Of a stretch of 64,000 nt of DNA, positions 31,045 to 62,130 are shown piece by piece. The DNA is taken from positions 7,910,613-7,974,612 of the forward strand of contig RPFO01000041.1 in the NCBI GenBank assembly GCA_009746045.1. The letters are read 5' to 3'. The DNA comes from Mesostigma viride (taxonomy: Eukaryota; Streptophyta; Mesostigmatophyceae; Mesostigmatales; Mesostigmataceae). Made by a program: the position numbers and the translations under genes. Each line of letters starts with the position of its first letter. Position 1 is the first letter of the stretch. The notes below the pieces were generated by a model. That model searched no databases and was not told where the DNA came from. It saw nothing but the letters and a program-made list of their open reading frames with translations.

Positions 31045-31108
31045 GGGTGGTCCCACGCGGAATGGGGTAGGTTTTTGCAAGAAAAAAACGCTAATTTCAA
31101 TCGTCCGA
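31045..31108 (+). repeat. Left terminal inverted repeat of the giant element
   Basis: It begins GGGTGGTCCCACGCGGAATG. The second conserved block includes GCAAGAAAAAAACGCT and TTTCAATCGTCCGA. Just inside, GCGCCGAAATT and GCCGAAAATTT motifs repeat, possible transposase-binding sites. Confidence 0.85.
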
Positions 31109-31492
31109 AAACCGGACATTGCGCCGAAATTCTTGCCGAAAATTTGGCAGCCGAGCGAATTTTTCGCCCGACGGACTTTGCGCCGAAATTTTTTGTCTGC
31201 CGTGCTTCGAACTCAACCGACTCCTGCTGTTGCGTGCACTTTGTCCGATGCCGGCAGGCCACGCACGAATTTTGCGACCGAAATATGACGACTAGACAAG
31301 TTTATCGACGACCTACATCGATCTATTGCCACTTTTGAAGTCCTTGGCTTGCTAGCAGCTTTTGATTATCAATGCCGGGAACAAAATTGCCGAAATTTTT
31401 TATTGAATCAGTACATATATGTGCACATGTCCGTAATTTTATCATTCTCAATTTTGACATTGTCGGAGTATTTGACAACTTAAGCATTGCGC
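31109..31492. other. Subterminal non-coding stretch of the giant element
   Basis: No gene was seen. Short GCCGAAATT-like motifs occur several times near the end (about 31128, 31140, 31188 and 31391). Confidence 0.4.
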
Positions 31493-31909
31493 CTAGAAAA
31501 AGGTGCCCCATCCGTCGATGTCAAAATCGCCGAAGGAGTACACTCCCTGGTACTGGTCTCCCCTGTAGTTGGGAGGCTCGCCTGTATACATTTTGGTGTT
31601 CCACTTGGCCCCGCCGTTCTCCGCAGCAGCCAGGAACTCCTGCTGGGCCTCGGCCCTCAGGCGCATCATTGATACATTGGGAGAGCCCGGAATTTCCGTG
31701 CTCTCCACCACCACTCTCGCCTGATTGTCAGGCACGCATTGGTAAGCAGGGTTCAAATCTGAATCGGGTGGCACCAGATCGATCATGCCATTGCCGAACG
31801 CAATGACACCTGCACCCCACTGTGCAGAAGGTCCGAGCAACTCTACATCAATTCTGATGTTTGCAGCGTGCTCATTTTTGTCGACCATCACATAGTGTCC
31901 AAAAACCAA
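31493..31909 (-). CDS. Unknown 138-residue protein end, cut by element B
   Basis: The open minus-strand frame enters from the element B junction and ends at 31493. It contains VELLGPSAQWGAGVIAFGNG, MMRLRAEAQQEFLAAAENGG and ends DFDIDGWGTFF. No family was recognised. The composition looks like a real globular protein, and the frame has no start of its own next to the insertion. It may be the last exon of a cargo gene whose upstream part was separated by element B and by element 4. Confidence is low that it is still expressed. Confidence 0.45.
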   Translation of the reverse strand: MVFGHYVMVDKNEHAANIRIDVELLGPSAQWGAGVIAFGNGMIDLVPPDSDLNPAYQCVPDNQARVVVESTEIPGSPNVSMMRLRAEAQQEFLAAAENGGAKWNTKMYTGEPPNYRGDQYQGVYSFGDFDIDGWGTFF

Positions 31910-31911
31910 AT

Positions 31912-33640
31912 GTCCTCATTTGAGGACATAGTCCTCGTTTGAGACAGGGGGGGTCAGGGGCGTGGTTTTGGCGCCAAATTTGGTCCTAGGGTCACTTGGT
32001 GGGTTTTGGCGCGAAACTGGGATAGGTACTGAGCGCGCCAAGCCCCTGGGGTCGACAGGGGTCGACCGTACCTGGAAAATATGAGGCGACGAAAAGTACC
32101 TACAACAGCAAGAACATCGCAATGCAATCGAGTGTTTTGTCGAGTGGCGGCTATGGGGTCGTGCCAGTTCCGAGGCTTGCCTGAATGTTATAGGGCATTA
32201 TTTTGCCCCGGACGAAGACAGCATTTTAGATCGTCATCTAGTGATTTCGAAGATGCTATTCTTCACGTGCAGGTGCTTTGTATATGTCGAAAATTTTGTT
32301 CATGAACGGATTTTGGCACTGTTGAAGAAAATCTGAGAGCTACGTAGATCGCATGATAGGTCAGTTCGCAGTTCGGTTTTACAATTTCTTTTTCCGCCCA
32401 GGCGCTGCGGATATCGCGAGTATGGGTTATGGTACGCTTCTGGGCTTATGGGCGACATGGGGAGAAGAGGGACCTGGGCAGTTGCATGCGTCAAAGAGTC
32501 TCTATTTTTTCGTCGTGATGTCGCAGTCGCGCCTGGCGAAAACCAGGGCGAGCGCGAGCCATATTTTTCTTTTGCCGCAAGGCTGGGTGCTTCCCACGCG
32601 TCACCGTCCTTGAATATATATTTCTTGAGCTGGCCCGCGCAGCTGGCGGCCTGGGCGCACGTCAAGAACAAGGTTCCGACTGTCATTCTCAACCGCATCG
32701 TTCTAAGTAAGCGTGTTAAGCGGATTGTAACCTGTAACTCCCGCAGACGTGATAATTCCGGTTGCTTTCAATGCCCAACTTCGTGTTTTTGATTACGTTA
32801 ATGTCCGGGCAATAACGGAAGTTTGCTGGGCAGTACTTTCTTTTCCCGTTGCGTCACTGAAAAGGTAAACGGCCTTGCGTTATCAAAACAGCAGCAATTA
32901 GATGTCGCTGTGCTTAATTGCGATGTGGTAGTTTGATTCAACACATATACTGCCTTGTTGCTGAGAAGTTTTTCAAGGCTTGCTGGTATGTTGCCCATAT
33001 GTTTCTAATGCTTCAACTCATGTCCAAGTGATCAAGACTGGCTTGGAAACTTGAGCTTGTCATGTTTACATTGTGCTTGTGCTACAACTTGTGCCTCTTT
33101 GCAGTATATGTTTTATATATAATGTAAGGGTTCAGCATCATTGTTTAGCACCGTGGTGGCAGCCGAGCCTCTACTAACGATCATGGACCTAACCTTGGCA
33201 AGTATTTGCTTCATATTTCACTCTTTGGACTGAGCTAGCTTTACACCTGCTGTTTGGCCTGCACCATGGTCCCTGGCTGCCAGTTACATTTTGTGCCCCC
33301 CCCTGGCAGGCTGCAGGGTCTATGGCTGCGAGGGTGTAACATAGACATGTTCTGGGCACCCTGGGTGCATTTTCAGGACCAGCCATGACCTGGCCATGCC
33401 TTCTTTCTTGGCATATTGTTGACTTGAGTGCTTTTTGGTCACTCGCGTAGCGACCCCCCTGCATTTATTAATCGTAAACAATTATACAATGAGCATATTT
33501 CATGGATGTTAAGCATTGCAACTCTTGAACATATCATAAATGAACATGGTTCCATACCGTACCCATGGATTTGTTGACATGTGTTAGTTATTACAAATGG
33601 TATCCATGCTTAAAAATGTCCTCATTTGAGGACATTTTCT
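31912..33640 (+). mobile_element. Element B, 1.7-kb element with palindromic ends
   Basis: The palindrome GTCCTCATTTGAGGAC lies at about 31914-31929 and 33617-33632. A variant copy (GTCCTCGTTTGAGAC) lies just inside the left end. After it come GGGGTCGACAGGGGTCGAC, CTGGAAAATA and GAAAAGTACCT in the order seen in element A, read there on the minus strand. No coding frame is convincing. Length and plan match element A, while the palindrome sequence differs. Confidence 0.65.
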
Positions 33641-33690
33641 TGGTGATTAGACAATAGGTATGCTGAGAACCGAAAATATTGCTCTGCTCC

Positions 33691-34307
33691 AGTTGTGAGG
33701 GTGAGAATGCCACGAATTCCGCCATGGTTCTTGCAGGAAGTTGCCTTTATTAATAACAAGGAAACACAGACGTAAGTCACGTCACTTCCAAGACTGCACG
33801 CAGCACAGACGACAGGGTCGCAGTGCCAAGAGAACGTGCACGCAAGAACTAGCGTCCCGGTGTGACCAAGTCACTCATATAGCTTGCTAGGGACGCGTCC
33901 AAGTATTCAGCTGAACTGTCACAGCTGAACTGTCAATCAATTGATTACACAGACTCTGGCACGCCTTTGGCGCGCAGATCTATCAATTGTCCATACGGCT
34001 AGTCCTGTGGACCTATCCGTACACTAGTCAGCATCAATTGTCTCATAGGTCCTGGCGCGCTACAGTGCGCCTACCTATCAATTGACCATCAAGTCCTGTA
34101 CAAGTCCTGTCAACGTCCTGCGGACTATCAAAGTGACACTTGTACATCCTGTGTCCGTACGCGCCCACAGTGGCGCGCCGGGTACTGTCGGCACAGCCTA
34201 GGAAACGTCATAACTTTTACGTTCCTTAACCAAATGAGGCGTTCAAGGTGCCGTTGGAAAGAGCGTAACAATCTCTATCCATCTAACGTAAATCCTTTAC
34301 GTTAACT
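33691..34307 (-). repeat. Element 4 3' LTR
   Basis: Direct repeat of 40905-41521, starting AGTTGTGAGG and ending CGTTAACT on the plus strand. Several TATCAATTG motifs lie inside. Confidence 0.95.
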
Positions 34308-35257
34308 CCAATCCCTTCTTTTCTTTAGGGATCACATCCCCTGCCAGGGACCCTTGAAGTAGCTTGAAATGTCCTTCACTCCAGCTTGAAGCTTGAACAG
34401 ATGTCTTTAATGGCCAATGCCATTCCCCCAGCCCTTTCTTTTAAGGAACTGGAAAAGAAACAGATCTGCCACAGGGAAAACCATTTCATGAGAAATGGAT
34501 AAAAACCTATGGAAGTGGCATTACAGAGTACCACCAGATATTAGAAGCACACAAAATTAAATACATACAGGTTAATTCTATGAGGTCTTCTCCAGGAATT
34601 AATCCCATCACCTCGGTAGAGCCTCCAGTACAATGACCTTCTGGCGGTGAGTTACATTAATCCCAGATACTAATCCCATAAAACCCAGTACATATTCAAT
34701 ATAAGTACAATAAATCCATGACAATTAAAATACCACTTGACAAAGTAAGGCGTATTACAATAGTTTGCCTGTCATTCTCTCAACAGGGGTCTATTGGCGC
34801 CCGTCTTACGGCGCCCGTCTACTTGCCAGATGGTAAACTGCCACAGCAAACAAATGACAAAATGAAACACATAGGCAACAATTAAATCCTGCCCTGGGGA
34901 ACTAGGGAAGTCTGAACAGGCAAACACCTGAACAGGCCAGCTTGTAGAAACATAATACCAGGGAATCGAACCCCGCCCTATAAACCCCAGAATAAAGGTT
35001 CCCAGACCATTGTGAGAAGTATGTACAAATATACATTTCTTTTAAAATAGAATACATGGTCTGTAATGGACCTGTCAACCTTGTGTAGTCAACAGCATGA
35101 ACCCCAGCCAAAACCTGGCTGTATCCTGATTAAAATCAGAGTGAGTGTACCATGGTCCATGAGCCTTAGTACAGACTAAAATACAGGTATTATGCCAGTC
35201 ACAATGCTGACACTACCACACAATCTGCTCTCCAATGCCCTATAACCATGCACCAGC
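34308..35257 (-). other. Element 4 3' untranslated region
   Basis: About 950 bp between the RNase H stop and the 3' LTR. No frame was recognised. Confidence 0.6.
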
Positions 35258-36001
35258 TTAGACAGCTTGCTGAGATGGGTCCATCAGAGACTGAAGAACC
35301 TTGTATTGCACTGCTGCCTTCTGCACTAGCTTGGTCAAAGCATCAGCAGGATTGTCAACCCCAGGGATATGCTCAATATTGGCCAAGGAGGACAACTCCT
35401 TAAGAAGGAGATAATCCAAGTCCCTACTTCTGGCCATCTGCCTGTGCACAAACTGCACCATCCCCATGGAGTCTGTTTTTAGAAGAGTGGTAACCTGAAG
35501 TGGCCAAGGAGTGTTAGAAGTCATCTGATGAAGCAACTCCTTCAGATAAAGGCTTGTGTGAATGCCTTCACAAATAGCCCTGCATTCTGCCACATCACTG
35601 CTGACAGCCACCCGTTTGTGCAGGCGACTAAACCAGCTCACCAAACTCCCCAGGCCTTCCTGTCTGAGCACAAAGAGCCCTGCAGCCCTGCCCCTGACCT
35701 TGGAGACCTGCCTGCTGTCCATTGAGCTATCCACATACAGCTCCATGCAAATGGGTTGTGATAAATCCACTGCAGACAACAGAATGCCAGATGAAGCCCT
35801 GACCTGATCAGCCACCTTGGCAGACCCTAGCTCCACCAGCATGTCATCAGGCAACCTGGCTATGACCATAAGGTCTGGCCTGGAAATGCCTGCCACCCAA
35901 GCAACCATGCCCCTCACCATGGGACACAGTGCCTGTGTGATGGTTGGAGGAAGCTTGCTAATGAGGGTCTCTTGATAATCATTGCCCCCCACCAGCAGCA
36001 T
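35258..36001 (-). CDS. Element 4 RT end and RNase H
   Basis: The 247-residue frame starts in the RT connection region. RNase H of Copia type follows with LYVDSSMDSRQV, SWFSRLHKRVAVSSDVAECR, LLKTDSMGMVQF and NPADALTKLV. It overlaps the upstream frame near 35.98 kb, where one base is gained or lost. Confidence 0.85.
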   Translation of the reverse strand: MLLVGGNDYQETLISKLPPTITQALCPMVRGMVAWVAGISRPDLMVIARLPDDMLVELGSAKVADQVRASSGILLSAVDLSQPICMELYVDSSMDSRQVSKVRGRAAGLFVLRQEGLGSLVSWFSRLHKRVAVSSDVAECRAICEGIHTSLYLKELLHQMTSNTPWPLQVTTLLKTDSMGMVQFVHRQMARSRDLDYLLLKELSSLANIEHIPGVDNPADALTKLVQKAAVQYKVLQSLMDPSQQAV

Positions 36002-36450
36002 ACGCCACTCCCCCCCTTCTTCACCAGTGTGGCCTCCATGCCCACAAACAGCAGAGGCTCATTCTCCACCTGCCATTGCTCCCTACCCAGAGGAAACTTG
36101 GACTTAATGATGGAGATCAGCTCCTTAAGCCACGACGTGGGAGCTATCAGATGTAGGTCATCCCCGTGCAGCGAAGCATACACTGGCAGGCCTTCCCATT
36201 GCCCCAGAAACAGACAGGGGTCTACAGGAGAGACCTTCAAGTTGCAATGCTCCTTCAGGAAACGGTTGAGAGTCTCCCTCCAGATTATTGGACTTGACCT
36301 CAGGCCCTCCAGGCCCTTGAGGATTTTAAGGAACTCCGTGTGGATGTCCCTTTTCCATACAGCAGGCACCCTAACATAGAAAGGCGTCTTGCCCTCCCAC
36401 TTTTCCTGTGCCACATCTGCATCCCCTCCAGAAATGCCCTCTTGAAGTCT
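35914..36450 (-). CDS. Element 4 RT palm segment
   Basis: From DADVAQEKWEGKTPFYV the frame runs through GLEGLRSSPIIWRETLNRFL to the catalytic box YASLHGDDLHLIAP. HGDD replaces the usual YVDD, as in element 3. The frame is linked to its neighbours by single-base shifts at about 36.42 and 35.98 kb. Confidence 0.75.
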   Translation of the reverse strand, partial: RLQEGISGGDADVAQEKWEGKTPFYVRVPAVWKRDIHTEFLKILKGLEGLRSSPIIWRETLNRFLKEHCNLKVSPVDPCLFLGQWEGLPVYASLHGDDLHLIAPTSWLKELISIIKSKFPLGREQWQVENEPLLFVGMEATLVKKGGSGVCCWWGAMIIKRPSLASFLQPSHRHCVPW

Positions 36451-37040
36451 ATCACCACTGAGCCATAGTCCAAGCCCTTGTTGAGAAGGCCTAGAAAGAC
36501 ACACAGCAGCAGCCTCCAAGTATCATGCAGCATGCCAGGGGTATACAACTCCTCAGCAGTGCACTCACCAGTACCCTTGAACTCATTCAGCACTGGCCTG
36601 ACATGTGGTACCTTGACCCCGTCCACCTCCTTCATCTTGATGACAAACTTGAGCTTGAGTAGACGTCGTGCAGGAGGCAGGTCATTGACAGGTTCCACGC
36701 ATTTCTTGGAGATCCAGTCCTCCCCAGATTTAATCAGACCCAGTGTGACCTGGGGACACATAATGGGAGAGGACATGAGCTTCACCAGGCCTTGGTAGTT
36801 GATAGGGCTGTGTCCAGCAAGTGAGTGAGGACCAATGCCCAAACTGCTTGGATGACTAGCAGCTGGCAGTATGAGGTCATCAACCAAGGGCTCCTGCCCC
36901 TGGCACACTTGCACACGCTTAACCGTCCTGGTTACTGCACGTGATAGGTGAGTGGTCCTGAAATTAATCAGTGGGACCTGACCAGCCCCTTCCTTAGTCA
37001 GGAGAGAGGACGTGATCACTACCCATCCTGGCATAGGAAA
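36420..37040 (-). CDS. Element 4 RT N-terminal segment
   Basis: The segment starts right after the protease-like domain (PGWVVI...). It holds PPARRLLKLKFVIKMKEVDG, VPHVRPVLNEFKGTGEC, EELYTPGMLHDTWRLLL and the first catalytic Asp motif VVIDFKRAFLEG, the counterpart of Copia LDVKTAFL. It changes frame at about 36.42 kb. Confidence 0.75.
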
Positions 37041-38692
37041 TTCTGCCCCAGAAGAGCAGGTCCTTGATAGCCCTCCAAGACACAAAAAGCAGTGTCCTGT
37101 CCAAGGATAGGAATGAATACCTCACCCAGTACCTTCACGTGTACCCCGCCACTGAAGTCAGACACAAACTGATAGCTGGGTTCAGACATGCTGTACCCTG
37201 CTGCAGCCCTGGTCCCAATGATGGAAACCTGAGAATTAGTGTCTACCTCTAAGGCAGTGTCCAGCCCCAGATTGCCATGCCACCTGAGCTTGGCTACCTT
37301 GGGCTGCTTCTTGGCCCTTTGTAGAGCCCCAATCAATCCAGCCAAACTTGTCCCCCTGGGCTTGGTTAGTGCCTTGGGCTTGACAGTTGACTCCCCAGCT
37401 GTTGACCTTGCAGCCTGTTCAACAAGTACCTCTGCAACCTGGCCAGGGCTGACAGATTCCCCTGCAACAGATGTGGTCGTTGCGTCAGTGATGTCACCTG
37501 GGACCTGAAAATCCTGCAGATCCTGTGAGCCTTGTGCCTGACTGCCCTCATTCATCAGGTTAGGCTTGACATATGACCAACTCAGCCGGTGTACATGCTT
37601 TGGTTCGTCCTCCATGCTGACCAAGCATGCGTGGCTAGCTTCATCAACCTGGGTAACCACCCCAGGACTCCAGCTACCACGTTTGCCATAAAGGCTAGGT
37701 TCCTTCCAAGCTAGGACCTTCTGACCCACTTGTGGCTCCAGCATCTTCCAACCCCGGTCCTTCTCCCTCAGCTTGGCAAAGGTGACATGTGCAGCATGTT
37801 TCCAGCCCTCCAGCACATGTGGTGGGCACAGGCCATGATATAGACCCATTGGGCTGACAGCAACTCCATCATAGTAGAAGTTAACCCTGCTGTTCAGCTG
37901 CTGCTCCACGTTCCTCAGCCATGCACTCCTGACAAGTGCAGGTGCAGACAAGGGTACCCAGTCTTCAGAGATGATCAATTTCTTGACCTCCTGGATTGCC
38001 CTCTCGATAGCACCCTGCTGCCCATGAGCCTCCCTAGGTGTAACCAGCAACTCAGGAAGGGTAGGATCACCCTTGAGATGCTGAAACTGCATGTCCACCT
38101 GGATCCTTGTGGTAGGAAACTTGGCTCTTACATTCTGCAGGGCAGCCAGCAAGTACCTGTTCTTCATAGAAGGTAAATGCTCCAGCACCTTGTATTTCGT
38201 GTACCTGTCCACGCACACCAACAGTTGCATGCCCCTGATGTGTTGGATATCACACTGCAGATCACCAATGCTCTGAGGTAGAGCTTTGGCATGTGATTTC
38301 CTGGGCTTGTTGGAGGACAACTGGCACTTACACCGTGAGGCAGCTTGCTGACACGCCTTAAGAAGGGGTGCCCTGCCCATACGGAAGGCAAAGTTGTTTG
38401 ACAGAGAAGTGGCATGCCCAAACATGTTGTGGATTCGGGCACCCAACTCCTGGTACACAGAGGAAGCAGTCCCTGGCACAGTCAGGACTGTGCTGTCAGG
38501 TTGTCCAGCATCACCATGCTGACTTCCATCCTGTTCTGACTCAGAGCCTGAGTCACCCTGCTCATGCCCAACACCTGGACCGCCAGCAGGGACCACATGC
38601 ATACCACCAGAGGCCTTCACACCCCTCTGTGGTTGTACATTGGTTTCTCTCAAAATGAGAGGTCCACCCTCGTGCCCAGCACGAGGATGCAT
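37019..38692 (-). CDS. Element 4 integrase and protease-like domain
   Basis: The 557-residue frame opens with a variable linker. HNMFGHA and CQQAASRCKCQL give the HHCC region. The core has LQCDIQHIRG, IQVDMQFQHL and QGAIERAIQE (D, D, E). KRGSWSPGVVTQV lies in the tail. LAGLIGALQRAKKQPKVAKL precedes the retropepsin-like segment VDTNSQVSIIG, FSGGVHVKVLGEV and ALLGQNFL. The ALQRAKK linker is shared with element 2. The protease lies after the integrase. The ATG at 38692 follows a TGA, but the gag frame stays open after its own TGA almost to this point. Confidence 0.85.
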   Translation of the reverse strand: MHPRAGHEGGPLILRETNVQPQRGVKASGGMHVVPAGGPGVGHEQGDSGSESEQDGSQHGDAGQPDSTVLTVPGTASSVYQELGARIHNMFGHATSLSNNFAFRMGRAPLLKACQQAASRCKCQLSSNKPRKSHAKALPQSIGDLQCDIQHIRGMQLLVCVDRYTKYKVLEHLPSMKNRYLLAALQNVRAKFPTTRIQVDMQFQHLKGDPTLPELLVTPREAHGQQGAIERAIQEVKKLIISEDWVPLSAPALVRSAWLRNVEQQLNSRVNFYYDGVAVSPMGLYHGLCPPHVLEGWKHAAHVTFAKLREKDRGWKMLEPQVGQKVLAWKEPSLYGKRGSWSPGVVTQVDEASHACLVSMEDEPKHVHRLSWSYVKPNLMNEGSQAQGSQDLQDFQVPGDITDATTTSVAGESVSPGQVAEVLVEQAARSTAGESTVKPKALTKPRGTSLAGLIGALQRAKKQPKVAKLRWHGNLGLDTALEVDTNSQVSIIGTRAAAGYSMSEPSYQFVSDFSGGVHVKVLGEVFIPILGQDTAFCVLEGYQGPALLGQNFLCQDG

Positions 38693-38880
38693 GGGTCAGA
38701 CATTCTTACAGCTGCATCAGCTGTCAAGGACGTCTTCATAGGAACCTGTACCTCTCCAGGTGACCTGGGGCCACACTGAACCTGGAGATCACCCTCTTGT
38801 TGCCCAGATATAAAATCTGCATTGGAGCACCTGGCCTCCCCCTTGGGTGAATTAAGGTGTGTAGGGGTTGCCTCAGACAG

Positions 38881-39999
38881 TCACTGCTCCTTGTTGTCTT
38901 CTTGCTGACTGCCCTTTGAAGGCTGGCCTGCCTGGGACTTGTTGTTGTTCTTCTTCTTGTTGTTGTTGTTATTCTTGTTGCTGCCCTGGCCCTGGGACTT
39001 CTTGAAGCTGGGACACTCCTTCTTGATGTGCCCCCACCCCTTGCACAGGTAGCATTGTATCTTGGACTTGCCCTGGCCACTGCCCCCATTGTCAGACGCG
39101 TTGCCCTGCTTGGGCTGACCACCCACCCGCCTGAACACCGACTTGGAGTGTGACCTCCTGTCAGAATCAGGTGAATGATCTCCCTTGCGCTTGTTATGGT
39201 TGCCCCTACGCCCTCCTTGGCTTCGGTCAGCCTCAGACGTCTTGGAGCCACCCTGGGTACGCCCGCCTGCCTGGGTAGCCTTCACTGCTGGCACTCCACC
39301 CTCAAACAGCTCCTCTGCCTCGAGTGCTTGTTTAATGATGACCTTGTAGGCCTTCAGGGTAGAGTGTGGGGCACACATGACTTTTAAGGAGCCACGTGTC
39401 GCCTTATCCAGCCCAGAAACCTTGAGCCAGTTGGTTAGGGCTATGTTATCAGCGACATTAAAGCCGTGAGCCCTGCCCTCCTCAACCATCTTACAATAGT
39501 TGAGAAAGTTCTGGATCAGGTCCCCCTTGACCTCCCACCCTTGATACTTGTCCTGCCAATGGATGCCGACCTTCTTGCGTTGGTCTTCCAGCAGCTCCTT
39601 CAGCTCAGCCACGTACAGTGCCCAGGCCTTATTGGCCTTTTTGCACTCCCTGGTTAGGTCCTTAATCTGGTCAGTACACTTGCCAAAAGTGCTACTGCCT
39701 ATCCAGATTTGATAGTAATTTGTACCACCGTACAAGCTAGGGAACCCTTCCAATCCCTCCACAAACTCTTCAGCCTGCTTAGGCTTGGAGTCTGAGGTTA
39801 CAGGCTGCAACTGATTGACAATTAAAAGACCCTGTGTGGTAAGATCAAAGCCATGAATAGCTTGTGCATTATTATTATTGTGAGGAAGGTTGGTAATCTC
39901 TCCGGTAAGCCCCACGTCATCTACGTGAGCGGTTCCACTACCAGCACCCCCATTATTATTCCCACTGGCTGGACCCTTGCTACGGCGTCCCTCAGCCAT
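38881..39999 (-). CDS. Element 4 gag with CCHC zinc knuckle
   Basis: The 372-residue protein starts at the ATG at 39999. A helical capsid-like region spans about residues 60-240. A basic Gly/Arg/Lys-rich stretch follows, then one zinc knuckle CYLCKGWGHIKKEC and an Asn/Lys-rich tail. The stop is TGA in the context CAG TGA CTG. The frame after it stays open for about 190 bases. Confidence 0.85.
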   Translation of the reverse strand: MAEGRRSKGPASGNNNGGAGSGTAHVDDVGLTGEITNLPHNNNNAQAIHGFDLTTQGLLIVNQLQPVTSDSKPKQAEEFVEGLEGFPSLYGGTNYYQIWIGSSTFGKCTDQIKDLTRECKKANKAWALYVAELKELLEDQRKKVGIHWQDKYQGWEVKGDLIQNFLNYCKMVEEGRAHGFNVADNIALTNWLKVSGLDKATRGSLKVMCAPHSTLKAYKVIIKQALEAEELFEGGVPAVKATQAGGRTQGGSKTSEADRSQGGRRGNHNKRKGDHSPDSDRRSHSKSVFRRVGGQPKQGNASDNGGSGQGKSKIQCYLCKGWGHIKKECPSFKKSQGQGSNKNNNNNKKKNNNKSQAGQPSKGSQQEDNKEQ

Positions 40000-40169
40000 C
40001 CTGCACTACCAGCTATTCAAAGAACACCTTAACAAAGCAGCAGAAAATATGTACAAAATTTTTGTGTCGCCACTGCCGCCTGCGCCGGTGTCGCTGCCGC
40101 CCCGCGAATTGCCGCTGAAAATTCGACAAAAAAAATGTCGACGAGTACTGCAAAAGAAAATTAGGCCGA

Positions 40170-40880
40170 CTAGTAGTCAAGGCCCCTGAAGTCGCAGTAC
40201 GTGTATACGAACTCACGATCCTCCATATCCAGCTCCGGACCTGCACCGGTATGAATTAAAACCGGTGTGCTCCCCGCCGCGTAAGTTGCGACGCGCCGAC
40301 GCGCGACGAGGCGCAGAGGATGTGTAAAGATCGTCAATAATTCCCACCCCGCGGGAATCCACTCTCGCACAGAGGCGAGAAATGCCACCAGGTTAATTAA
40401 AACCTGGCGCTCACGACTGCGTACGCCGCGAGTGAGCAGCGATAGCAGCGCAAGATCCTGAAACAAATTTGTTGACACCGCCGGCGCGCCCCCCGTGCGT
40501 AGCGATGCCCAGTTTTGCAGGTTTCTCTGGTAACCGGTGAGTGAAGAGAGGACGTTGTCCAACTCCTCAATGGCAGTCGTGACTTCGGTCACCGACCGCA
40601 AACCTCCCCGCACCTGGACCGTAAATGTCGATAAAATGTTTCGAATCTGGTCCAACAGGTTGCGGATTGCCGGCACCAGTGCTGGCAAATCGGGGTCCTC
40701 GGGGTTATCCCCGAGCAATGGATGAGCTGCGCGCTGTTGACGATGAAGCTCGTCGAGCGAGATCGTAACTTCGTCGAGCAATTGCTGCCACGACGGCGCA
40801 GTCGGTCTTGACGAAGGACCAGCCGGCGGAGCGGCTATTTCCTCGTCATCGGGAATCCGGAATTCTTCAGAATTTGGCAT
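40170..40880 (-). CDS. Element 4 ORF1
   Basis: The ATG at 40880, 25 bp inside the 5' LTR, opens MPNSEEFRIPDDEEIAAPP. Long helical stretches follow (LLDEVTISLDELHRQQ, IRNLLDQIRNILSTF, VTTAIEELDNVLSSL, VLINLVAFLASV), and the protein ends DREFVYTYCDFRGLDY. No known domain was found. It ends 170 bp before gag. ORF1 of element 2 has the same place and helical character, so this is probably a shared accessory or capsid-related protein. Confidence 0.65.
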   Translation of the reverse strand: MPNSEEFRIPDDEEIAAPPAGPSSRPTAPSWQQLLDEVTISLDELHRQQRAAHPLLGDNPEDPDLPALVPAIRNLLDQIRNILSTFTVQVRGGLRSVTEVTTAIEELDNVLSSLTGYQRNLQNWASLRTGGAPAVSTNLFQDLALLSLLTRGVRSRERQVLINLVAFLASVREWIPAGWELLTIFTHPLRLVARRRVATYAAGSTPVLIHTGAGPELDMEDREFVYTYCDFRGLDY

Positions 40881-40904
40881 CTTTTTAACAGAGCGTGTAA
40901 TACG

Positions 40905-41521: not shown

Positions 41522-41526
41522 GCTCC

Positions 41527-49198: not shown

Positions 49199-49202
49199 TT
49201 AA

Positions 49203-50554: not shown

Positions 50555-50558
50555 TTAA

Positions 50559-50802
50559 TACATGTGGGGGGGTGCTGCTACGTATCAATACATGTGGGGG
50601 GGTGATGCTACGTACGTATCAATACATGTGGGGGGGTGATGCTACGTATCATTTATTTATTCATGCCATCACCCCCCCACATTTAATTATTAATGCCAGC
50701 ACCCCCCAACATTCATTTATTCATGCCATCACACCCCCACATTCTTTCATTCATGGCAGCACCCCCCCACATTTATTTATTCATGCCATCACCCCCCCAC
50801 AT
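50559..50802. repeat. Minisatellite centre, orientation switch
   Basis: Three G7 units in plus orientation (to about 50650) meet C7 units of the opposite orientation (ATTTATTTATTCATGCCATC then C7). The switch lies at about 50650. The two unit types are diverged versions of one repeat. Confidence 0.8.
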
Positions 50803-50806
50803 TTAA

Positions 50807-52147: not shown

Positions 52148-52151
52148 TTAA

Positions 52152-53331: not shown

Positions 53332-54518
53332 ATGTCGTCCTCCTATTCCGATTCTGTCAAGGCCACTCCCGTTTCACCCAAGATGACGTCGAACACCTCG
53401 CCGGACCGAACGGCAACGGAGGCGTTTCCTCCGTTGCAGTTCGGTCCCGTAAATGCTCTTGCGAGGTCCCCCCCACCGAGTCCCCCTCGCCCTCCAAGTC
53501 CAACTTGCCCCCCAGCGAGTTGGACAGAATTATACCCCCCAACTCTCTCGCTGCTGCGTCTCGCGCTCCGTCCCGCTCTCCGCCCCGTAAGTCTCCATCG
53601 CCGCCCCCCAAGTCGGCCGGAGCTACTGCGTCCCGCTCGCCGCCCCGCAAGTCCCCCAAGTCCCCCGCAACTGCGACCCGTTCGCCGAACCGCAAGTCCC
53701 CCTCTCCGCCCAAAGTTCCCCCCGCTACCGCGTCCCGCTCTCCTTCTCGCAAGTCCCCCTCGCCGTCAACCAAGAACCCCGCAACTGCGTCCCGCTCGCC
53801 GTCCCGCTCTCCTTCCCCCAAGTCCCGCTCGCCGCCACCCAAGTCCCCCGCTCTGCGTCCCGCTCGCCGTCCCCCAAGCATTCCAGTTCTAAGCGTAAGC
53901 CTGCGGCCGAGTGGGTAGAGGAAGACGACCGCACCAAAGAGCTCAGGAAGCTGAGGAAGTCTATCAGTGAGCTTGTTGAGGAGGACGAGCGCGATCAGAC
54001 TAACGGGAGGCCTGAAGACCCGGAATCGCCGGTTCGGGAGTCGCGTCAGAAGCGGTTGTCCGATTTGTTAGCAATGGCCGCAAGCTTTGCTGACGAATAC
54101 GCGGCTCTCGACAAGAAGGACAAGGAGAAGGAGAAGGCGGAGAGGGAGGCCATCGAGAAGGCGGAGAGGGAGAGGGTGGAGAGGGAGGAGAAGGAGAGGC
54201 TGGAGAAGGCGGAGAGGGAGGAGGAGGAGAGGGAGTACAAGGAGAAAAAGGCTGCCCAGGAGAAGGAGCACAGGATCCTGGTGGCGAAGCAGAAGGAGGA
54301 GGCGAAGAAGAAGACGGAGGCGGCAGCGAAGGAATTCTTGCGGAGGAGGCCGCTCTTTTTTTGCAGATGCGACAGGAGAGGATGAAGGCGGAAGAGGCCG
54401 CGAGGAAGATGGAGGAGGAGGCTGCGAGGAAGGAGGAGGAGGCTGCGAAGGCAGTTGAGGGGGAGAAGGACGAGAACGGAGACCCCTTCTTCACGAAGGA
54501 TTTTCAGTCGATTATCAG
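53332..54518 (+). CDS. Cargo gene 1: SP/RS-repeat and coiled-coil protein
   Basis: A splice acceptor TTCTGCAG precedes an ATG at 53332, and a donor GTATGT follows at 54519. The first third is an Arg-Ser-Pro repeat region (ASRSPSRKSPSP type, about 53560-53890). Then come KRKPAAEWVEEDDRTKELRK and a long Lys/Glu coiled coil (about 54100-54480). It is continuous only if the frame changes near 53.45, 53.85 and 54.34 kb, each time by one base. RS/SP repeats next to a charged coiled coil recall nuclear RNA- or DNA-binding scaffold proteins, but no family was recognised. Confidence 0.5.
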
Positions 54519-54708
54519 GTATGTTTATTAATGTGAGACGTACATTTTTCAGATGGCTTGAACGGCGTGTGTGTATCGTAGAAAGGGTGGGATTTTATGT
54601 CATACATTGATCGTAAGGGTCTAGCTGCGGAGAGACGTTGACCTAGGAGTTAAGGTTGTTGACGACGACGACGATGTGTGGCCTTTTTTTTACTCTTGTT
54701 GTCTGCAG

Positions 54709-55277
54709 CCCTCCACGGTGGCCATTCTGAAACAGTACCTGGCTCAGACTGAGTCTGAGCTGGGGTGAGTCGTAAAGCCGAAAAGGGCTTGAGAGGCTTG
54801 ATCCGCTTTCTTTCGGCCGAGATAGCGTTTGCAGAGAAGTCCGGTGTCGTCGTGGACCGTCCGGAGTCGGCACACATAATTTGGAAGAACGACCGCCTGG
54901 GCCGTCTTGCATTGTTCGAAGCCACACAGCGAGCCATTCATGGGAAGAGGGTCGTTGGTGACGACATGTATGAGGTTTTGAAGATCGCGCAGTCGTGCAT
55001 CCTTAATCTGAAGGAGGATGTCGGACGTTACTTTCCCCGTCGTGCTTTAATATGGTCGACGCTCTTTGATGAGGTTGAAAAGTTCGAGGTCCACATTGGC
55101 TTCACATGCATCGAGGCTTCCTATATGGAAACCTTGAAAACCACTGCGTTGCATCAGCTCTTTAAACTCATGACTGGAGATATGAGAGCGGATTCGAGGG
55201 CTTCACTGTCGGAAGATGAAGTGTTTGATATTGTCAGGCAAGGATTTGTTGACACGTCCAACAGTGACTTATCGTAA
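54709..55277 (+). CDS. Cargo gene 1 or 2: helical exon(s), unknown
   Basis: After acceptor TCTGCAG (54708) the frame PSTVAILKQYLAQTESELG runs for 55 bases. After a one-base shift at a G run it continues as SRKAEKGLRGLIRFLSAEIA and on to VDTSNSDLS and a TAA at about 55.28 kb. GTGAGT at 54764 could instead be a donor. The segment is helix-rich with IIWKNDRLGRLALFEATQRA. Phase with the previous exon does not match, so the join is uncertain. No known domain was found. Confidence 0.5.
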
Positions 55278-55291
55278 TTGTGCCGGGAAGA

Positions 55292-58200
55292 ATGAATGAC
55301 GTAGGAGGATTGGAGGAGCGCGCACATGAAGTGATCGCGCATTTGGACATGGCAAGAGACCACTTACTGCAATCTTTTGTTAAGTGGCGGACTGACTTTC
55401 TTGTCAGCCCGGACGCCAGCCTTTCGCGGGAAGCGGTCGCTTTCTTTTTGGATTGGGCTGGACAGGTGATCCAAAGTTTCCGGCACCGGGAGGACTTCCA
55501 TGTTATTCAGACATATAAGCCATACCGGGAAGTCGTCCAGGAATGGTTGGATCAAATCTCGTTGGTTGATTGTCTCCAGAGTATCCGAACCAAGACAGAC
55601 ACGGAGTGGTCTGATTTAGAGGCGGGAGGCCATTGGCAGTCCCTCGAGTTGTTCTTCGAGGCGGAATTGAGGCGGCAACTGGAAAAGGAGAGAGCCCATC
55701 AAGTGCCGATATGGCCTTTGGGGAAGATTTTGAGGAGGTGGAAGTTCTACGTTTCGGTACGTTAACTTGCCGATATCGTTTATCGATTTGGGTTGTTTCC
55801 ATTCCCTGAATAGGGCTCTATATGCTGACCAACCTTCATGGTTTGTCCTGTCATATCATGCAGGGGGGCTCCATGCCAGGGGACGTATCGGAGGATTTAC
55901 CTAATTTGTCAGACTTGGTTGATAAGGTGGGTGCTTGTCCGTCGAGTTTCCACGAGCATCTTACATGGGGTCTAGCTGCAGGTAGACCCTCACCCTTTTA
56001 TTGAGACTGACATGTTCGGCTAATTTCAACGGTGCCCCCAACCAATCTGTTGTCTTTTTTCAGGGGGCGGCTGCGGCGATGGCTGTTGACAGTGCTGGTA
56101 TTTGGTCTGGACTCGAGATGGAAATGGTAAGCATTAAACGATATCCGGATGTCTGCATTTCGCCTGAAGTTTTAGTGAGCGCATTATGCGAAATATACAA
56201 ATATCGACTAATTTTGATTTCCAATGAGCTGTCGTATTCGGTGTTGACAGGCGGGGGGTTTGGCCTCAGCAGGCGCTGCCGGAGAGGAAGAAAACGCTGG
56301 AGGAGATGAGGATGGGGGGGATGAAAACGCTGGAGGAGATGAGGATGGGGGAGACGCTGAGGGAGAAGTGGCTGTGCAGGTACGTTCATCCGCCGCGAGT
56401 TCGTGTGATTTTTTTCGTGCTGAGGGGTATCTCCGCAGAGAGACGATGGTGCAACAATCGAACTGAGGTCAAGTCCCTTCTTGTTCGTTTTTTTTTGTCA
56501 TGCAGGCGGGGGCTGTCGCTGGGGGTACTGCGGGGGGGAAGGCGGCGAAGCCCCATTGACAGCATGAAAGGGAAAAGCTGGATTCCCGCAAGAAGGTTGC
56601 GAAGGATCATATTATTGCTGTTGGCCTGATCATGCTTAAGTCTCCGCCCGATGGCGTCGATTCGGAGGGACCTGCGGGGTCCGAGTTTCGCAAGTACCTG
56701 ACACGACTTGAGGCGGAAGTCGATGCCGATTTCGATACGGAGGTGTTGGGTGACGCTACCTTTAAGAGTGAATTGGCATATGAATTCGCAAATCTGGTGA
56801 AGTCGAAAGCCACCAAGAATTTCAAGTGGCAGCCTAAGGAGTACTCAGAGGCAAAGGTTGACAAGATCGAGAAATTCATGAAGGCTGATTTTCGTCGTCG
56901 GGCCGCTGAGGGAAAAAGGGCGCTGAATGCGGTGGCAAAGGCCAACAGTAAGAAGAACGCGGAGGCGAAGGCGGCGGAGAAGGAGGCGAAGAAGGCGGAG
57001 AAGGAGAAGGCTAAGGAGGCCAAGAAGCAGCAGAAAACTGGACAGGTACGATTGTTGTGAAAATTTAGACCTCTCGCTGCGGGTAGACGCTGACGGCTGC
57101 GGGACTTGGTGTTTAGTGTCAGTAAGGTATTATTCCAACAGAACTTTGTTCGTCCCTGAACAGGATGTCGTGGTCGGCCTAAAGATTACTGACTTGAGCA
57201 AATCCTGCGGTCCTTTTCGATTTTTTACTTCAGGATGACGGGGGGGACGAAGACGCCACGGTGGAGAAGAAGTTACCTGGTCATGACGCCGTGTTCGCGC
57301 TGGTGAAGGATATGCTCAAGTACTGCTCGAGTAGGCGGATGGCGGACGTCGATGACCTGCCAAACTGGCCCGAGTTCTCCCCCTTTCTTGAGCTGCTCCG
57401 GTCACTCAACAAGCTTTTTAAGGAGGGGGTGCTCACGAGCAGTGGGAACCCGGACACCGACCCTATCATTGAAAGCTGGAAGCCTTCGAAAAAGGTCGAC
57501 TCGAACAAGGAGGTCAGGGACCAGAACATCCGGAAGGCCAATACTCTCAGGGAAACGCGTTGGATTCGGCCGGCCGATTTTAGCAGACCGGATGTTTCAG
57601 TATGCGGATCCAGACGGTCAACGCGCTTATTTTGCCAGAGGCTTTGAGGCAGCGGCGTTTAAACCTTGAAACCATTAAGGAGAACGGCCGCATTCTCCTC
57701 AATGCGCGGGACAACGCCTTGCACTTCAAGGTTGTTGTCCCGGTCTGGCAGTTCCCTTTCCAGGCGCTTGCCGAATCTCAACCTGACCTGTTCGACAAGC
57801 AAATCTTGTGCATGCCGGATTTCGTCAAGTGGCTGAAGCATCACCACGGCGCCAAGATTGACGCGGAGGATGTGGGGTCCAGGTACTTCCGGCCCCTTTC
57901 GGATACTGAAGTCGACGTGTGGCTTAACACGGAGTCCACCACCTCTTTCCTCGCGAGAGGACTTGAGTGGCGTACCTACGCCAGGGTGGACGAGGTGGAA
58001 GCAGTTTTGCCTCAGGAGATCGAGGGCAGTCGGCAAGTTTTCAACCTGCTGTGCAATACTGCGATGAAGTCCTACGATCCGAAATTTTTTGAGGAACGGG
58101 TACCGGTACCGTATCTGGTTCTCCGGTACGCGGTGGTGGATGGGAACCACTACTTTAAGGGGTTAAAGTCGTTTCTCAGGGGGCCGGATGGCGGGTGGGG

Positions 58201-58402
58201 AGAGGTTCGGGCAATGATGTGCGAGGGTGGGGCGGAGTCCAATTTCGCAAATACTCCTAAGGAGGCGGAGCACGCCTTCCAGGACCTGTTGCGGAAATTC
58301 CGTGGTGGTTACATGGGTACGAACGTCGTTCTTCTCAAGGGTGGCGACCTGCTCCCGTCGTGGAGTGAGCTCGAAATCTACCTAAGGCAAAAGAAGATGT
58401 AA
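55292..58402 (+). CDS. Cargo gene 2: multi-exon protein of about 800 residues, unknown
   Basis: The exons are 55292-55756, 55864-55926, 56064-56126, 56251-56379, 56506-57045 and 57234-58402, all with GT-AG borders and all phase 0. The start is ATG 55292 (MNDVGGLEERAHEV). Exon 1 is helical. Exon 4 is an acidic repeat (ENAGGDEDGG twice). Exon 5 ends in a Lys/Ala/Glu coiled coil. Exon 6 holds the most globular part, with PVWQFPFQALAESQPDLFDK and YLVLRYAVVDGNHYFKGLKS. Two defects exist: an in-frame TGA at 56557-56559 and a one-base shift near 57.60 kb. No family was recognised. Introns 3, 5 and 6 (55927, 56380 and 57046) hold the element's palindrome or a degenerate copy. Confidence 0.6.
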
Positions 58403-58644
58403 GCTATCTATTTTGGCAGGGTCTAGCTGCGGGTAGACCCTCGGAATTTTCGTGGTTGTTTTTTGTGTGCGCTTCAAGTTTTTTGCGAGGGTCTCGCTGC
58501 AGCTAGACCCTCTCCTTTTTTTTGTTGGAATTTTCGTTGCGTATTGTCGGCCGTTTCTTTTTCGAATTTTGTTAGGGTCTATCCGCAGCTATACCCCTCG
58601 CCTTTTATGACTGAGTTTTGTCGTTGCTCGCTCGATGTTAATTG
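58403..58644. other. Intergenic stretch with three palindromes
   Basis: Palindromes at about 58418, 58486 and 58573 are spaced about 70-90 bp apart between two cargo genes. Confidence 0.7.
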
Positions 58645-59661
58645 ATGTCGCAGGCGGTGCTGACCGGCAAGCTGGAGAAGCTGTTCGACATCGCCAAGGG
58701 GGCGAATTCGGAGGACTTAGCCGTGGCGGATCGTACGCTGGGCCAGGCGTTGCTTGACGTGTGGAACTACAACAAGCTATATCTATACGGCAAAGTCACG
58801 CGTGGGAAGGGCCACTATATTGCGGATGGCCACTACACCAATCTGCTCACGTACATCCTCCCGGCTATGCGGCAAGCGGGGGGAAGGGAAGGGAATGTGG
58901 AGCCGGCAGCGGTGGATGTACACGAGGAGGAAGCAGAAGGAAAGAAAAAGCCGGCCCACAGCATTGCTTCAGTGCATTCCGCTTACAGTCGCACGCTGGC
59001 CAACACGTTTCTCCGTCTGACACAGGAGCAGACTGATGATCCTGCCTCAACGAAACCCGCGCCTGAGGAGGTGATGATGCAAAGGTGCAAATTCGCCAAT
59101 GCAGAGGGGGAGAAGAAAGGCCAGAAGGTCTCTTGGACTTCTTTCAGGAACTTGGCCAGCCTTCCTATGATGGACGCCGTGATCGATTGCATCATGAGCT
59201 GCCAGGTTGGACCGGAAAAGCTCACCAAGTTGGTGGAGATCGCCAAGGATGTGCTGGAGTGCCTGCGGCTGACCATTTGCGCCAGATTCAAGGAGGATGA
59301 GACGCTGGAAGCGCAATGCAAGGACGCAAATGGCAAGGAGTTTGTGGCGTCTCATATTTTCGAACTCGTCTTCAATCTCCATCCTCTCGCTCGGCCGGTC
59401 GGCAGGAAGGAGATTGTGGCCAGATACCGGGAATTTTGGGATGTGGCCGTCATCATAACGAGGAACATCGCCTACCTTCTTAAAGCCAAAAAACACGCCG
59501 CACATCTGAGGATTCCGAGAAAGGATCTCAGTAATGGCAAGATCGACTTTCAGGAGATTCTGCTAAAAGAGAGCGAGGACAAGACGGTGGGTTTGGCACT
59601 TTTGGCTCCGGAAGCGTTCAGGAAGTACGCTCCAAAAGTTGGATTACTCGAAGGGGGGTGA
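58645..59661 (+). CDS. Cargo gene 3, N-terminal frame, unknown
   Basis: The ATG at 58645 opens MSQAVLTGKLEKLFDIAKG. The 338-residue frame is helix-rich and globular: DRTLGQALLDVWNYNKLYLY, VHSAYSRTLANTFLRLTQEQ, GPEKLTKLVEIAKDVLECL and FWDVAVIITRNIAYLLKAKK. Its last residues (KYAPKVGLLEGG) overlap the next frame, DYSKGGEGGGDEG. A one-base shift in CCAAAAG would fuse them into a protein of about 850 residues. No known domain was found, and no signal peptide or membrane span is evident. Confidence 0.6.
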   Translation: MSQAVLTGKLEKLFDIAKGANSEDLAVADRTLGQALLDVWNYNKLYLYGKVTRGKGHYIADGHYTNLLTYILPAMRQAGGREGNVEPAAVDVHEEEAEGKKKPAHSIASVHSAYSRTLANTFLRLTQEQTDDPASTKPAPEEVMMQRCKFANAEGEKKGQKVSWTSFRNLASLPMMDAVIDCIMSCQVGPEKLTKLVEIAKDVLECLRLTICARFKEDETLEAQCKDANGKEFVASHIFELVFNLHPLARPVGRKEIVARYREFWDVAVIITRNIAYLLKAKKHAAHLRIPRKDLSNGKIDFQEILLKESEDKTVGLALLAPEAFRKYAPKVGLLEGG

Positions 59662-61173
59662 AGGAGGCGGCGATGAAGGGGCCGGTGAAGGGGCTGGAGA
59701 AGGGGAAGGGGAAGGGGAAGGAGACGGAGGCGAAGAAGGAGAGGAGGCGAAGGAGGAGGAGGAGTGGGACGTGAAGTATGAGTGGCAGAGTGTGGACTGG
59801 GGCCGTCGCCGGGTCTGGTTTTGCTGTCAGGTACTAGACGGTGATGATGATGACAAGTCGCTCGTCAAGCAGGTGGCAGGCGAGGTTGCCTCAGCTTCAG
59901 CCCGCCCCTTTCCCTTGGGCAGGTCCCTTCCGTGCCTGAGCCTGCTGAACTTGGCGAACATTTGGGGTGATAAGTGGAGTAACTTTCAGTCCAGGTGGTG
60001 GGCGTTCGGTCCTTGCCCGAAAGCTTCGGACATTCCCCAACCGGGCGGGATGTACGATAATGTGCTGAAGGCTTGCGCCCACGACTTTTTCTCCAGGTTC
60101 GAACCGATGGTGATCGTGTTTGGTACCGAGACGGAGATTAAGGGGTTTCAAGAGATAGTGGAAAGGATCGGGAAAGGGAGTGAATTGTGGGAGCGGCTTG
60201 AACAGGGGGAAGGTGATGGGGGGCCTAGGCTCGGAAGGGCGAAGAAGCGAAAAGCTTCCCACGAAGCTGGGGGATCGTCCGCCGTGGTGGAGAGGGATGA
60301 CCAACAGTTGTTGGAGGGAGGGGATGGAGGGGATGGAGGTCCGGCAGGAGGGTCTAACCGCGGAGAGACCCCCGTCGAGGTCAGAACGCAGCAGGCCGAA
60401 CAGATGACGGGGCCTGAAGGTGATTCGGATCCGCCTGCGGCGAAGAAGCCCGCTTCTCAAGTGACTCGACGGGCAGTCGTGTCACTTGTTGAGGATGATG
60501 GAGGTGGGCCTTCCAAGCCTGCCGCGTCGCAGCCCGTTTTTCAGGTTCCGAAGAAGCAGCTTCGGGTTCCCCCGCCGACTCTGCCCACCCCGGCGCCTCT
60601 GCCCAGTTCTCAGGTACCGAAGAAGCAGCTTCGGGTTCCCCCGCCGACTCTGGCCATTTCTCAGGTACCGAAGAAGCAGCTTCGTAAGCCAGTTGTGGCA
60701 GTGGCTGATTCGGACGACGATGCTGAGGAGGAGGAGGAGGAGGAGGACGACGATGCTGAGGAGGAGGAGGGGGAGGAGGAGGAGGAGGAGGAGGAGGAGC
60801 AGCACGTTGCTACCAAGAAATCCGCCAAGGGTGGGAAGGCTGCGGAGCACGTTGCTTCCAAGAAATCGGCCAAGGTGGGGAAGCCTCCCAAGCCTGCCCT
60901 GCCTCAGAAACGGCGTCGAAAAGCAGTTGTGCTTTCAGATTCGGACGATGAGGAGGAGAAGGAGGAGGAGGATGGCGGCGGAGAGGAGGAGGACGGGGGA
61001 AAGGAGCGCGTTGCTTCCAAGAAGTTACCCAAGACCGCGAAGACTGCCAAGGTTGCCGAGCCCGCCAAACCCGCCCCGGCGCCTGCCCCCCACCCCCAGA
61101 CGGGGTCTACCTGCGAGCAGAGGTCGAAGGAAAAGGCCAAAAAGGGTAAGAAAAAATCTGCGAGTGAATTCTG
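59639..61173 (+). CDS. Cargo gene 3, C-terminal frame: acidic/basic chromatin-like tail
   Basis: The frame starts with an acidic Gly/Glu run (GEGEGEGDGGEEG), then a folded part (WDVKYEWQSVDWGRRRVWFC, SRFEPMVIVFGTETEIKG). A long disordered tail follows with QVPKKQLR three times, poly-Glu stretches, DSDDD and DSDDEEE patches and three HVATKKSAK-like blocks. Such alternating acidic and Lys-rich tails are common in nuclear, chromatin-associated proteins. This is an analogy, not homology. A donor GTATGT follows at 61174. The palindrome at 60350 lies inside this open frame and is translated. It probably forms one gene with the preceding frame. Confidence 0.6.
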
Positions 61174-61234
61174 GTATGTAGAGTGTTTTGATTTTTCACG
61201 GTTGGCAGTCCGATTTCTACTAACTCGATTTTAG

Positions 61235-61831
61235 TCATGCGTTGATGGCATGATCGGTTTGCTCGCAGGTAATGAGGATGTGGAGCAGTTACTTCGCTTG
61301 GCTAATGTGGCGGTGGGCTTCGGACCAGCGGCTGTACATGCTGACACTTCCGGACGGGAGGAGCCTAAGGGGGCGGAAGACAGTCAGGCGGGCGATGAGG
61401 ATGATGACAAGCCCACGTTGGAAATGAGACTTATGGACGGGGAAATGGGGTTCGGAGCACCAGAGGCCTTTTGGTGTGATGGGTGGACTTTAGCCATTAT
61501 GCAAGCAGGGAACAAGGATACGGCTACGCCAATGTATGCCAAGCTAGAAGACGTCATGCTTTATGGGCAGGTGTCTGGATACGACACCAAGTGGAGGGAC
61601 GTCGCATTTAAGTTTTTCGCTGAGGGGGAGAAGGGAGGGAAGTTGAAGAACAAGTTGTGGTGGATGCCGCTGGACTACGCGATGAAGGTGGTAAAGCTGA
61701 CGGATGGCAAGAGCTGGAAGGATGTGGAAGTCTGGGCGCCTGCAAAGGAGATCGATAAGAAGAGGAGGAACTCGAAAACGGAACAGCAGATCGCGGAAGC
61801 GAAATTACGGAAGAGGCCCTCGAAAGTGTGA
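61235..61831 (+). CDS. Cargo gene 3 last exon or cargo gene 4, unknown
   Basis: After acceptor TTTTAG or CTCGCAG (61234 or 61268) the frame runs NEDVEQLLRLANVAVGFGP, then MRLMDGEMGFGAPEAFWCDG, KWRDVAFKFFAEGEKGGKL and KNKLWWMPLDYAMKVVKLTD to a TGA at 61831. The phase of neither acceptor matches the donor at 61174, so the link to the previous frame is uncertain. It could begin at ATG 61250. No family was recognised. The product is probably a small Trp-containing globular domain with a basic tail. Confidence 0.55.
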   Translation, partial: SCVDGMIGLLAGNEDVEQLLRLANVAVGFGPAAVHADTSGREEPKGAEDSQAGDEDDDKPTLEMRLMDGEMGFGAPEAFWCDGWTLAIMQAGNKDTATPMYAKLEDVMLYGQVSGYDTKWRDVAFKFFAEGEKGGKLKNKLWWMPLDYAMKVVKLTDGKSWKDVEVWAPAKEIDKKRRNSKTEQQIAEAKLRKRPSKV

Positions 61832-62053
61832 GGGAAAGTTAGCACTTGGACATGCGCTGGCAATGCTCGTCCTATGGTTAATACAAAGGTTAGGATGATG
61901 TCGAGTCTCTCCACGTAAAATTTACATGAATTACTAACTTTCAAGCCTCTCGATGTGGAATGTACGCTCAAATTGACATGAATTAAGCATTATGACACCA
62001 AATTAGCTCGAAAATACGCGATCGGACGCCAAATTCGCGCGAAAAAAAGATAT
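61832..62053. other. Subterminal non-coding stretch, right side
   Basis: Nothing coding was seen. Two copies of a segment with GACATGAATTA or ACATGAATTA and CTCTC.A.GT lie at about 61900-61990. GCGCGAATTTGG-like motifs close to the TIR resemble those at the left end. Confidence 0.4.
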
Positions 62054-62126
62054 CGGACGATTGAAACTAGCGTTTTTTTCTTGCAAAATGCGCCAAAAAT
62101 GACCCCATTCCGCGTGGGACCACCCC
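62054..62126 (-). repeat. Right terminal inverted repeat of the giant element
   Basis: Complement of the left end: the outer GGGTGGTCCCACGCGGAATG and the inner GCAAGAAAAAAACGCT with TTTCAATCGTCCGA. It has 8 bp more between the two blocks. CTCA follows at 62127-62130. Confidence 0.85.
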
Positions 62127-62130
62127 TCAG

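Follow-up and report, generated by a model that had tools for sequence, protein, structure and literature searches.

We analyzed a 64,000-nucleotide stretch of the genome of the unicellular alga Mesostigma viride (contig RPFO01000041.1 of assembly GCA_009746045.1; hereafter the window, whose own positions are used below). We conclude, with a probability of roughly 0.88, that the interval between the inverted repeats that begin at 31045 and end at 62125 represents a single copy of a DNA transposon with terminal inverted repeats (TIRs) that is autonomous, has amplified recently, and measures about 20 kb, and that later insertions lengthened this copy to 31 kb. The interval has the features of a TIR (class II) transposon: inverted repeats, a constant 4-bp target-site duplication (TSD) at scattered sites, and a transposase whose core is predicted to be RNase H-like.

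Ends, copies, and target sites

The outermost 24 bp of the interval form an exact inverted pair (31045–31068 and 62102–62125), and a second similar block lies inward of both. BLAST aligned the left TIR (31045–31108, plus strand; 24 exact bp, a short spacer, and the second block) with the right TIR (62125–62053, minus strand) over 73 columns at 82% identity (E = 2.7e-14). The termini of the element start with GGGTGG, and they are immediately flanked by the two copies of the TSD, CTCA at 31041–31044 and the matching CTCA at 62126–62129. A preliminary description of this DNA had proposed these inverted ends, the CTCA at either side, and a single mobile unit between them that holds a transposase gene, a row of intron-containing genes, and a private repeat family. 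All of these points were borne out, the mobile unit by sister copies that share both its ends and its interior.

We searched the assembly (439.9 Mb, 2,243 contigs). We infer that it is the published NIES-296 assembly, given as 441.8 Mb in 2,363 scaffolds and built from PacBio, Illumina, and optical map data (PMC6947507). The exact 24-mer end occurs 363 times (187 + 176 on the two strands), and its reversed control 0 + 0 times, which excludes a chance origin. We chose 22 plus/minus end pairs by eye from about 100 listed places and compared their flanks. Left-type and right-type ends differ in sequence, and each of the 22 pairs joins one left with one right. A 4-bp TSD was present in 19 of the 22, of which 18 were called by script and one (L006/L007) was corrected to CTAA, the script having used the end of an adjacent miniature inverted-repeat transposable element (MITE). 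Shuffled pairs, serving as the control, matched 0.8 times on average and at most five times in 2,000 shuffles. The flanks of L060/L061 agree over 5 bp, those of L054/L055 and L072/L073 do not match, and the match at L052/L053 is weak in that it sits in a simple ATTA repeat. TSD sequences vary (CGCA, ATTA, TCCT, ATCC, CGAA, and others), and among seven whole copies that we fetched, six have a duplication and one (C382) has none.

A search with a transposase exon scored 147 matches of 730 candidates, consisting of at least 123 at 91–100% identity (family 1, which includes the window copy) and at least 24 at 68% (family 2), both counts being lower bounds; stops fall inside five of the family 1 matches. 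An exon of the right-hand gene region gave 122 matches at 82–100%, two of which are pieces of one copy, leaving 121 places. The two exons are divergent, in the expected order and 5–50 kb apart, in 78 of 123 cases, and in one case when the transposase strand was flipped. The copy C323 has flanks identical to those of C224:2489380-2505487 and differs from it in length; we take the two to be the same insertion site assembled twice, as a haplotype or redundant contig, for at least this one locus. Because at least one locus is present twice in the assembly, distinct insertions are fewer than matches. We conclude that the Mesostigma genome contains an element with a conserved gene set at about 100 sites.

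Native size and nested insertions

The preliminary description suggested looking in the same assembly for other copies with the same gene order, and we found and fetched five giant sister copies: C323 (19,535 bp), C382 (20,976 bp), C446 (21,568 bp), C1 (20,658 bp), and C85 (21,542 bp). With the minisatellite described below masked, the window copy is collinear with all five and 95–99.8% identical to them in long blocks. In all five, 26 bp connect the bases corresponding to window positions 31895 and 41520, and both left-hand insertions of the window copy are absent. These nested insertions amount to about 9.6 kb; because five sister copies of 19.5–21.6 kb lack both, we put the native length of the element at about 20 kb. 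The 31.1 kb given at the outset for the unit is therefore correct as the length of this copy and incorrect as the native size, and the accompanying suggestion that later insertions account for part of that length proved right.

The first of the two left-hand insertions (31896–33657) measures 1.76 kb, including one copy of the ATAG that borders it on both sides. The second is a copia-type retrotransposon on the minus strand (33691–41521), with 617-bp long terminal repeats that are 99.5% identical, flanked by GCTCC at 33686–33690 and 41522–41526; C85 has a single GCTCC at this place. A palindromic MITE-like insertion (41846–42066) is absent only from C1 among the five giant copies, where the window stretch 41827–42120 is missing. 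C446 has two extra insertions of its own, of about 2 and 0.8 kb. A 30-bp minisatellite array (47903–52778), whose length varies between copies, holds two further insertions in the window copy. These two (49199–50558 and 50803–52151) are related, mutually inverted, edged by TTAA on both sides, and have CCCATAGTCCG-like ends; by their duplication they are piggyBac- or Kolobok-like. We had considered a foldback gene region at 47.9–52.8 kb and rejected it, the stretch being this minisatellite with its two TTAA-edged insertions.

End pairs 32–48 kb apart with matching flanks also occur, known from their ends and flanks alone. Such longer copies are no proof of movement at a larger size, because nested insertions may be later. 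At one place (G000, C1:655061-765992), the right-hand exon, palindromes, transposase, and left end follow one another in the order of the element over about 110 kb, perhaps as one copy inflated by nested insertions.

Gene set, palindrome, and small forms

The transposase gene (42351–46396, minus strand) is intact and encodes 1,002 amino acids in four exons (46396–46384, 45982–44511, 44357–43581, and 43097–42351), with three GT...AG introns and no internal stop. JGI Mesvir1 gene models match the window proteins at 96–100%, which identifies the organism as Mesostigma viride, and the exon borders agree with models P0004 (99%) and P0005 (63%). In exon 44357–43581, strands and helices are predicted in the order of an RNase H core with conserved acidic residues at the usual places, and a structural model of this exon gave RNase H-like matches; we regard the core as RNase H-like by prediction. 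The conserved acidic residues are the D in GDWAEN/HTDYAEN, the D in SDNC, and the E and D in HGKGEVDG, a possible DDD/E triad in which one of the latter two may be the third residue. Pfam gave no family above cut-off in ten window open reading frames (ORFs), where only Bromo_TP (E = 0.062) and BSP_II (E = 0.0076) came up, both under the threshold, and no match for P0004 or P0001. P0005 had weak matches under the cut-off to TniQ and DUF7869, the latter (E = 0.12) covering the putative catalytic stretch without being significant; the name DUF7869 was not found in the literature searched. Searched by sequence, the PDB gave no match to the long transposase ORF and two to alignment A3, both at E of 1 or worse. 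Viral contigs searched with the transposase and the TIR gave no match. An AF2 model of full-length P0005 (pLDDT 37) was not used.

The transposase is accompanied by a left gene and a right-hand gene region. The left gene, whose 3′ part lies at 31496–31895 on the minus strand, is cut by the 1.76-kb insertion in the window copy; it is an open frame of 204–216 amino acids in four of the five giant copies and is broken in C1. The right-hand multi-exon region (53332–61831, plus strand) consists of blocks at 53332–54518 and 54709–55756, short exons to 56379, and blocks at 56506–57045, 57234–58398, 58654–61173, and 61269–61831, and is either one long gene or a few. Its largest block, from 58654, is open for 844–866 amino acids in seven copies. 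Frameshifts in the region, present in the window copy too, lie at differing places in differing copies; because their positions differ by copy, the largest block is open, and the assembly is PacBio-based, they suggest indel noise.

All three components recur, in the same order and at about 55–66% amino acid identity, in family 2, whose transposase is 63% identical to that of family 1, and 68% in the searched exon. At one family 2 locus (C1:2458300-2478264; L090, L093), the sequence that we read comprises 4.2 kb spanning the left end and a further 4.5 kb in the right part. There the left gene (58.9% amino acid identity) is offset from the end by 448 bp, as in family 1, and the three right-hand blocks that we sampled are present, in order, after the transposase. 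The family 2 left end is the same over 164 bp in C1 and in C435 (from about 227580, L092); it reads TGGCCGGGCCCACTTCGAATG and looks like GGGTGGTCCCACGCGGAATG. Nonsynonymous divergence between the families (dN) was well below synonymous divergence (dS) in the left gene (dN 0.25, dS 0.90, dN/dS 0.28), transposase exon 43097–42351 (dN 0.29, dS 1.11, dN/dS 0.26), and the last right-hand exon (dN 0.36, dS 1.11, dN/dS 0.32); two other right-hand blocks are saturated (dS >2), one of them just 37 codons long. Within family 1, the same kind of test found few differences and no visible constraint. Only the comparison between families thus reveals constraint, a pattern to be expected if most young copies are free of selection. 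Because all three are kept in a diverged family and are constrained between families, we conclude that the left gene, the transposase, and the right-hand region are, as far as sequence can tell, the element's own genes and not passengers; the preliminary description had spoken of a cargo-bearing form. The ORFs of L090 had no Pfam match; one of them (L090:2336-4201), open for at least 622 amino acids, crosses the family 2 left end into the flank, and this copy may be inserted in or beside a gene.

The private repeat is a 22-bp palindrome, GGGTCTMGCTGCAGCKAGACCC, with 19 sites at ≤3 mismatches between 43169 and 58596, none in the 32.9 kb of the window outside the element, and none in shuffles. 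At ≤7 mismatches there are 27 sites between 42.2 and 61.8 kb, of which 16 lie in introns, counting those defined in this analysis, and one in a coding block. The palindrome-bearing introns are all three of the transposase and four of the right-hand region, two of the latter through weak 6-mismatch sites. The site in a coding block, a copy with four mismatches at 60350–60371, belongs to the right-hand region. Genome-wide, we found 1,977 sites at ≤1 mismatch, against 0 for the control. Of 50 listed exact palindromes, 23 are enclosed by a pair of exact ends and another 23 have one exact end within 20 kb; the remaining four, 80–110 kb from an end and in the element's own order, may belong to one very inflated copy. 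Family 2 stretches have variants near GGGTCACTCTGCAGAGTGACCC (one site at two mismatches, one at four, and two at five), which may mean that palindrome and element diverged in concert. We also considered an RNA hairpin. At positions 7 and 16, the window copy has A-G seven times, C-G four, A-T three, and C-T three, which is not covariation; the 10.3-kb form described below has A-T in 15 of 18 sites, which also suits pairing. We rejected the hairpin on the lack of covariation between half-sites in the window copy, even though the 10.3-kb form is mostly symmetric, and on balance a DNA dyad is the better fit.

The same ends and palindromes also occur in much smaller units. Among the first 30 ends listed, 11 belong to short forms, ten with a length of about 586 bp and one of 1,340 bp; ten of the 11 have an exact 4-bp TSD, and all 11 contain palindromes. 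In a comparison with the giant element, two of the ten 586-bp copies proved to share with it 131 bp on the left, 65–97 bp on the right, and segments of 20–41 bp at the two palindromes. An intermediate form measures exactly 10,314 bp in both of its copies (C36:18339-28652, ends L043 and L044; C80:300151-310464, ends L045 and L046). It is satellite-rich, contains 20 palindromes, with tandem arrays of them, and some diverged right-end sequence, and gave no match to the two transposase proteins. By their sequence, the 586-bp and 10.3-kb forms are non-autonomous, with the same ends as the giant element and little else in common with it except the palindrome.

We propose that the transposase cuts and pastes the whole unit and would also act in trans on the small forms. 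The palindrome may be a cis-acting DNA site that is bound by an element-encoded dimeric protein and needed for, or aiding, mobility, because the 586-bp form retains the ends, two palindromes, and little else recognizable. The left and right genes would then supply accessory transposition functions, such as complex assembly or the protection and expression of a long element, rather than being host passengers. Elsewhere in the window, outside the element, 23119–28162 contains two blocks of long direct repeats, one of 421 and one of 415 bp, that lie about 1.4 kb apart and show 100% identity within each pair.

Alternative explanations and known systems

We were concerned that two solo ends or MITEs might bracket host DNA by accident at this locus; the same ends do form short elements, so chance end pairs could arise. 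This explanation is refuted by the five other copies with the same interior and ends, four of which have their own matching 4-bp flanks, and it fits neither the one-to-one pairing of distinct left and right end types in the 22 pairs nor the 78 of 123 transposase matches near a right-hand exon against one in the control; we consider it barely credible. Somewhat less remote, and still very improbable, is a provirus-like or virus-derived element that uses TIRs, whether Maverick/Polinton or another integrated double-stranded DNA virus. The size, divergent gene blocks, and multi-gene content of the Mesostigma element are similar to those of such elements. Mavericks/Polintons carry DNA polymerase B, capsid, and integrase genes, and Pfam recognized no polymerase, capsid, or protease in the ten window ORFs scanned, which do not include every exon. 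The 586-bp forms with TSDs, moreover, suit a transposase-type mechanism.

A more serious contender, which we nevertheless regard as unlikely, is a composite origin, in which an ordinary transposon of a few kilobases captured host genes once, as the right-hand block, and amplified with true passengers. It gains from the lack of a known function for the right-hand and left genes and from small forms that are evidently mobile without them. Against it, the left gene of family 2 keeps its offset and the right-hand exons that were sampled keep their order, even though the two transposases are only 63% identical, and dN is well under dS between the families; the capture would have to precede the family split and then be retained by selection. 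We prefer an autonomous element with its own gene set. The palindrome in it could be a minute parasite, or a repeat spreading neutrally within these elements, and have no role in mobility, a possibility that we take seriously and still think is probably wrong. The copies per element vary from two to about 20, and the 10.3-kb form has tandem arrays of them, as such a repeat might; yet the palindrome is missing from the rest of the window, 46 of the 50 listed exact sites lie inside an end pair or within 20 kb of an end, and two are retained in the 586-bp form. A still bolder proposal, which we offer tentatively and would not bet on, is that giant TIR transposons with an invariant set of genes form a new superfamily. 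A protein encoded by the element would bind the private palindrome over most of the element's length, including the introns, and by marking the DNA in this way would keep about 20 kb mobile.

The Mesostigma element is far larger than ordinary elements of its kind. The natural series of 20 kb, 10.3 kb, and 586 bp indicates the minimal cis parts and lets the mobility of long TIR elements be tested directly, in a unicellular alga close to the streptophyte base. The orphan genes common to the two families would be accessory functions awaiting explanation. In the literature searched, which left out most subscription journals, we found no description of such an element.

We compared the element with known systems. 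The termini of EnSpm/CACTA elements are CACTA, which the GGGTGG of the Mesostigma element does not match. MuDR, hAT, and KDZ-Zisupton elements have TSDs of 8–11 bp against the 4 bp found here, and the TTAA duplication of Kolobok and piggyBac differs from the varying TSDs of the Mesostigma element. Starships use a tyrosine recombinase, the product of their captain gene, and vary in cargo. Like them and other giant cargo transposons, the Mesostigma element is a large multi-gene mobile unit; unlike them, it is RNase H-like by prediction and has the same gene set in five giant copies, and the ten window ORFs, which do not cover every exon, had no Pfam match to a captain above cut-off. Ac-Ds and Spm-dSpm are autonomous/non-autonomous pairs with subterminal binding repeats. 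The non-autonomous derivatives in Mesostigma likewise retain ends and short repeats, whereas the repeat here is a 22-bp dyad that extends across most of 20 kb, each transposase intron included, and forms no subterminal cluster. Sola elements have a DDD transposase and a 4-bp TSD; to our knowledge, they do not include 20-kb forms with several genes and internal palindromes. Sola is named among 20 DDD/E superfamilies in a survey (PMC9587614). The Mesostigma element resembles it in having a 4-bp TSD without fixed sequence and a possible DDD/E triad, a likeness by features and not by sequence comparison. Similar in scale are the En/Spm (CACTA) families that have become enlarged in the red alga Chondrus crispus, described as 16–20 kb long with 4–5 ORFs (PMC6431247). 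These too are several-gene TIR transposons of similar size in an alga, but the Mesostigma element has GGGTGG rather than CACTA ends, a 4-bp TSD, and a transposase without a Pfam family above cut-off. We assign the element to no superfamily and file it here as a new lineage among TIR transposons, one that carries several genes.

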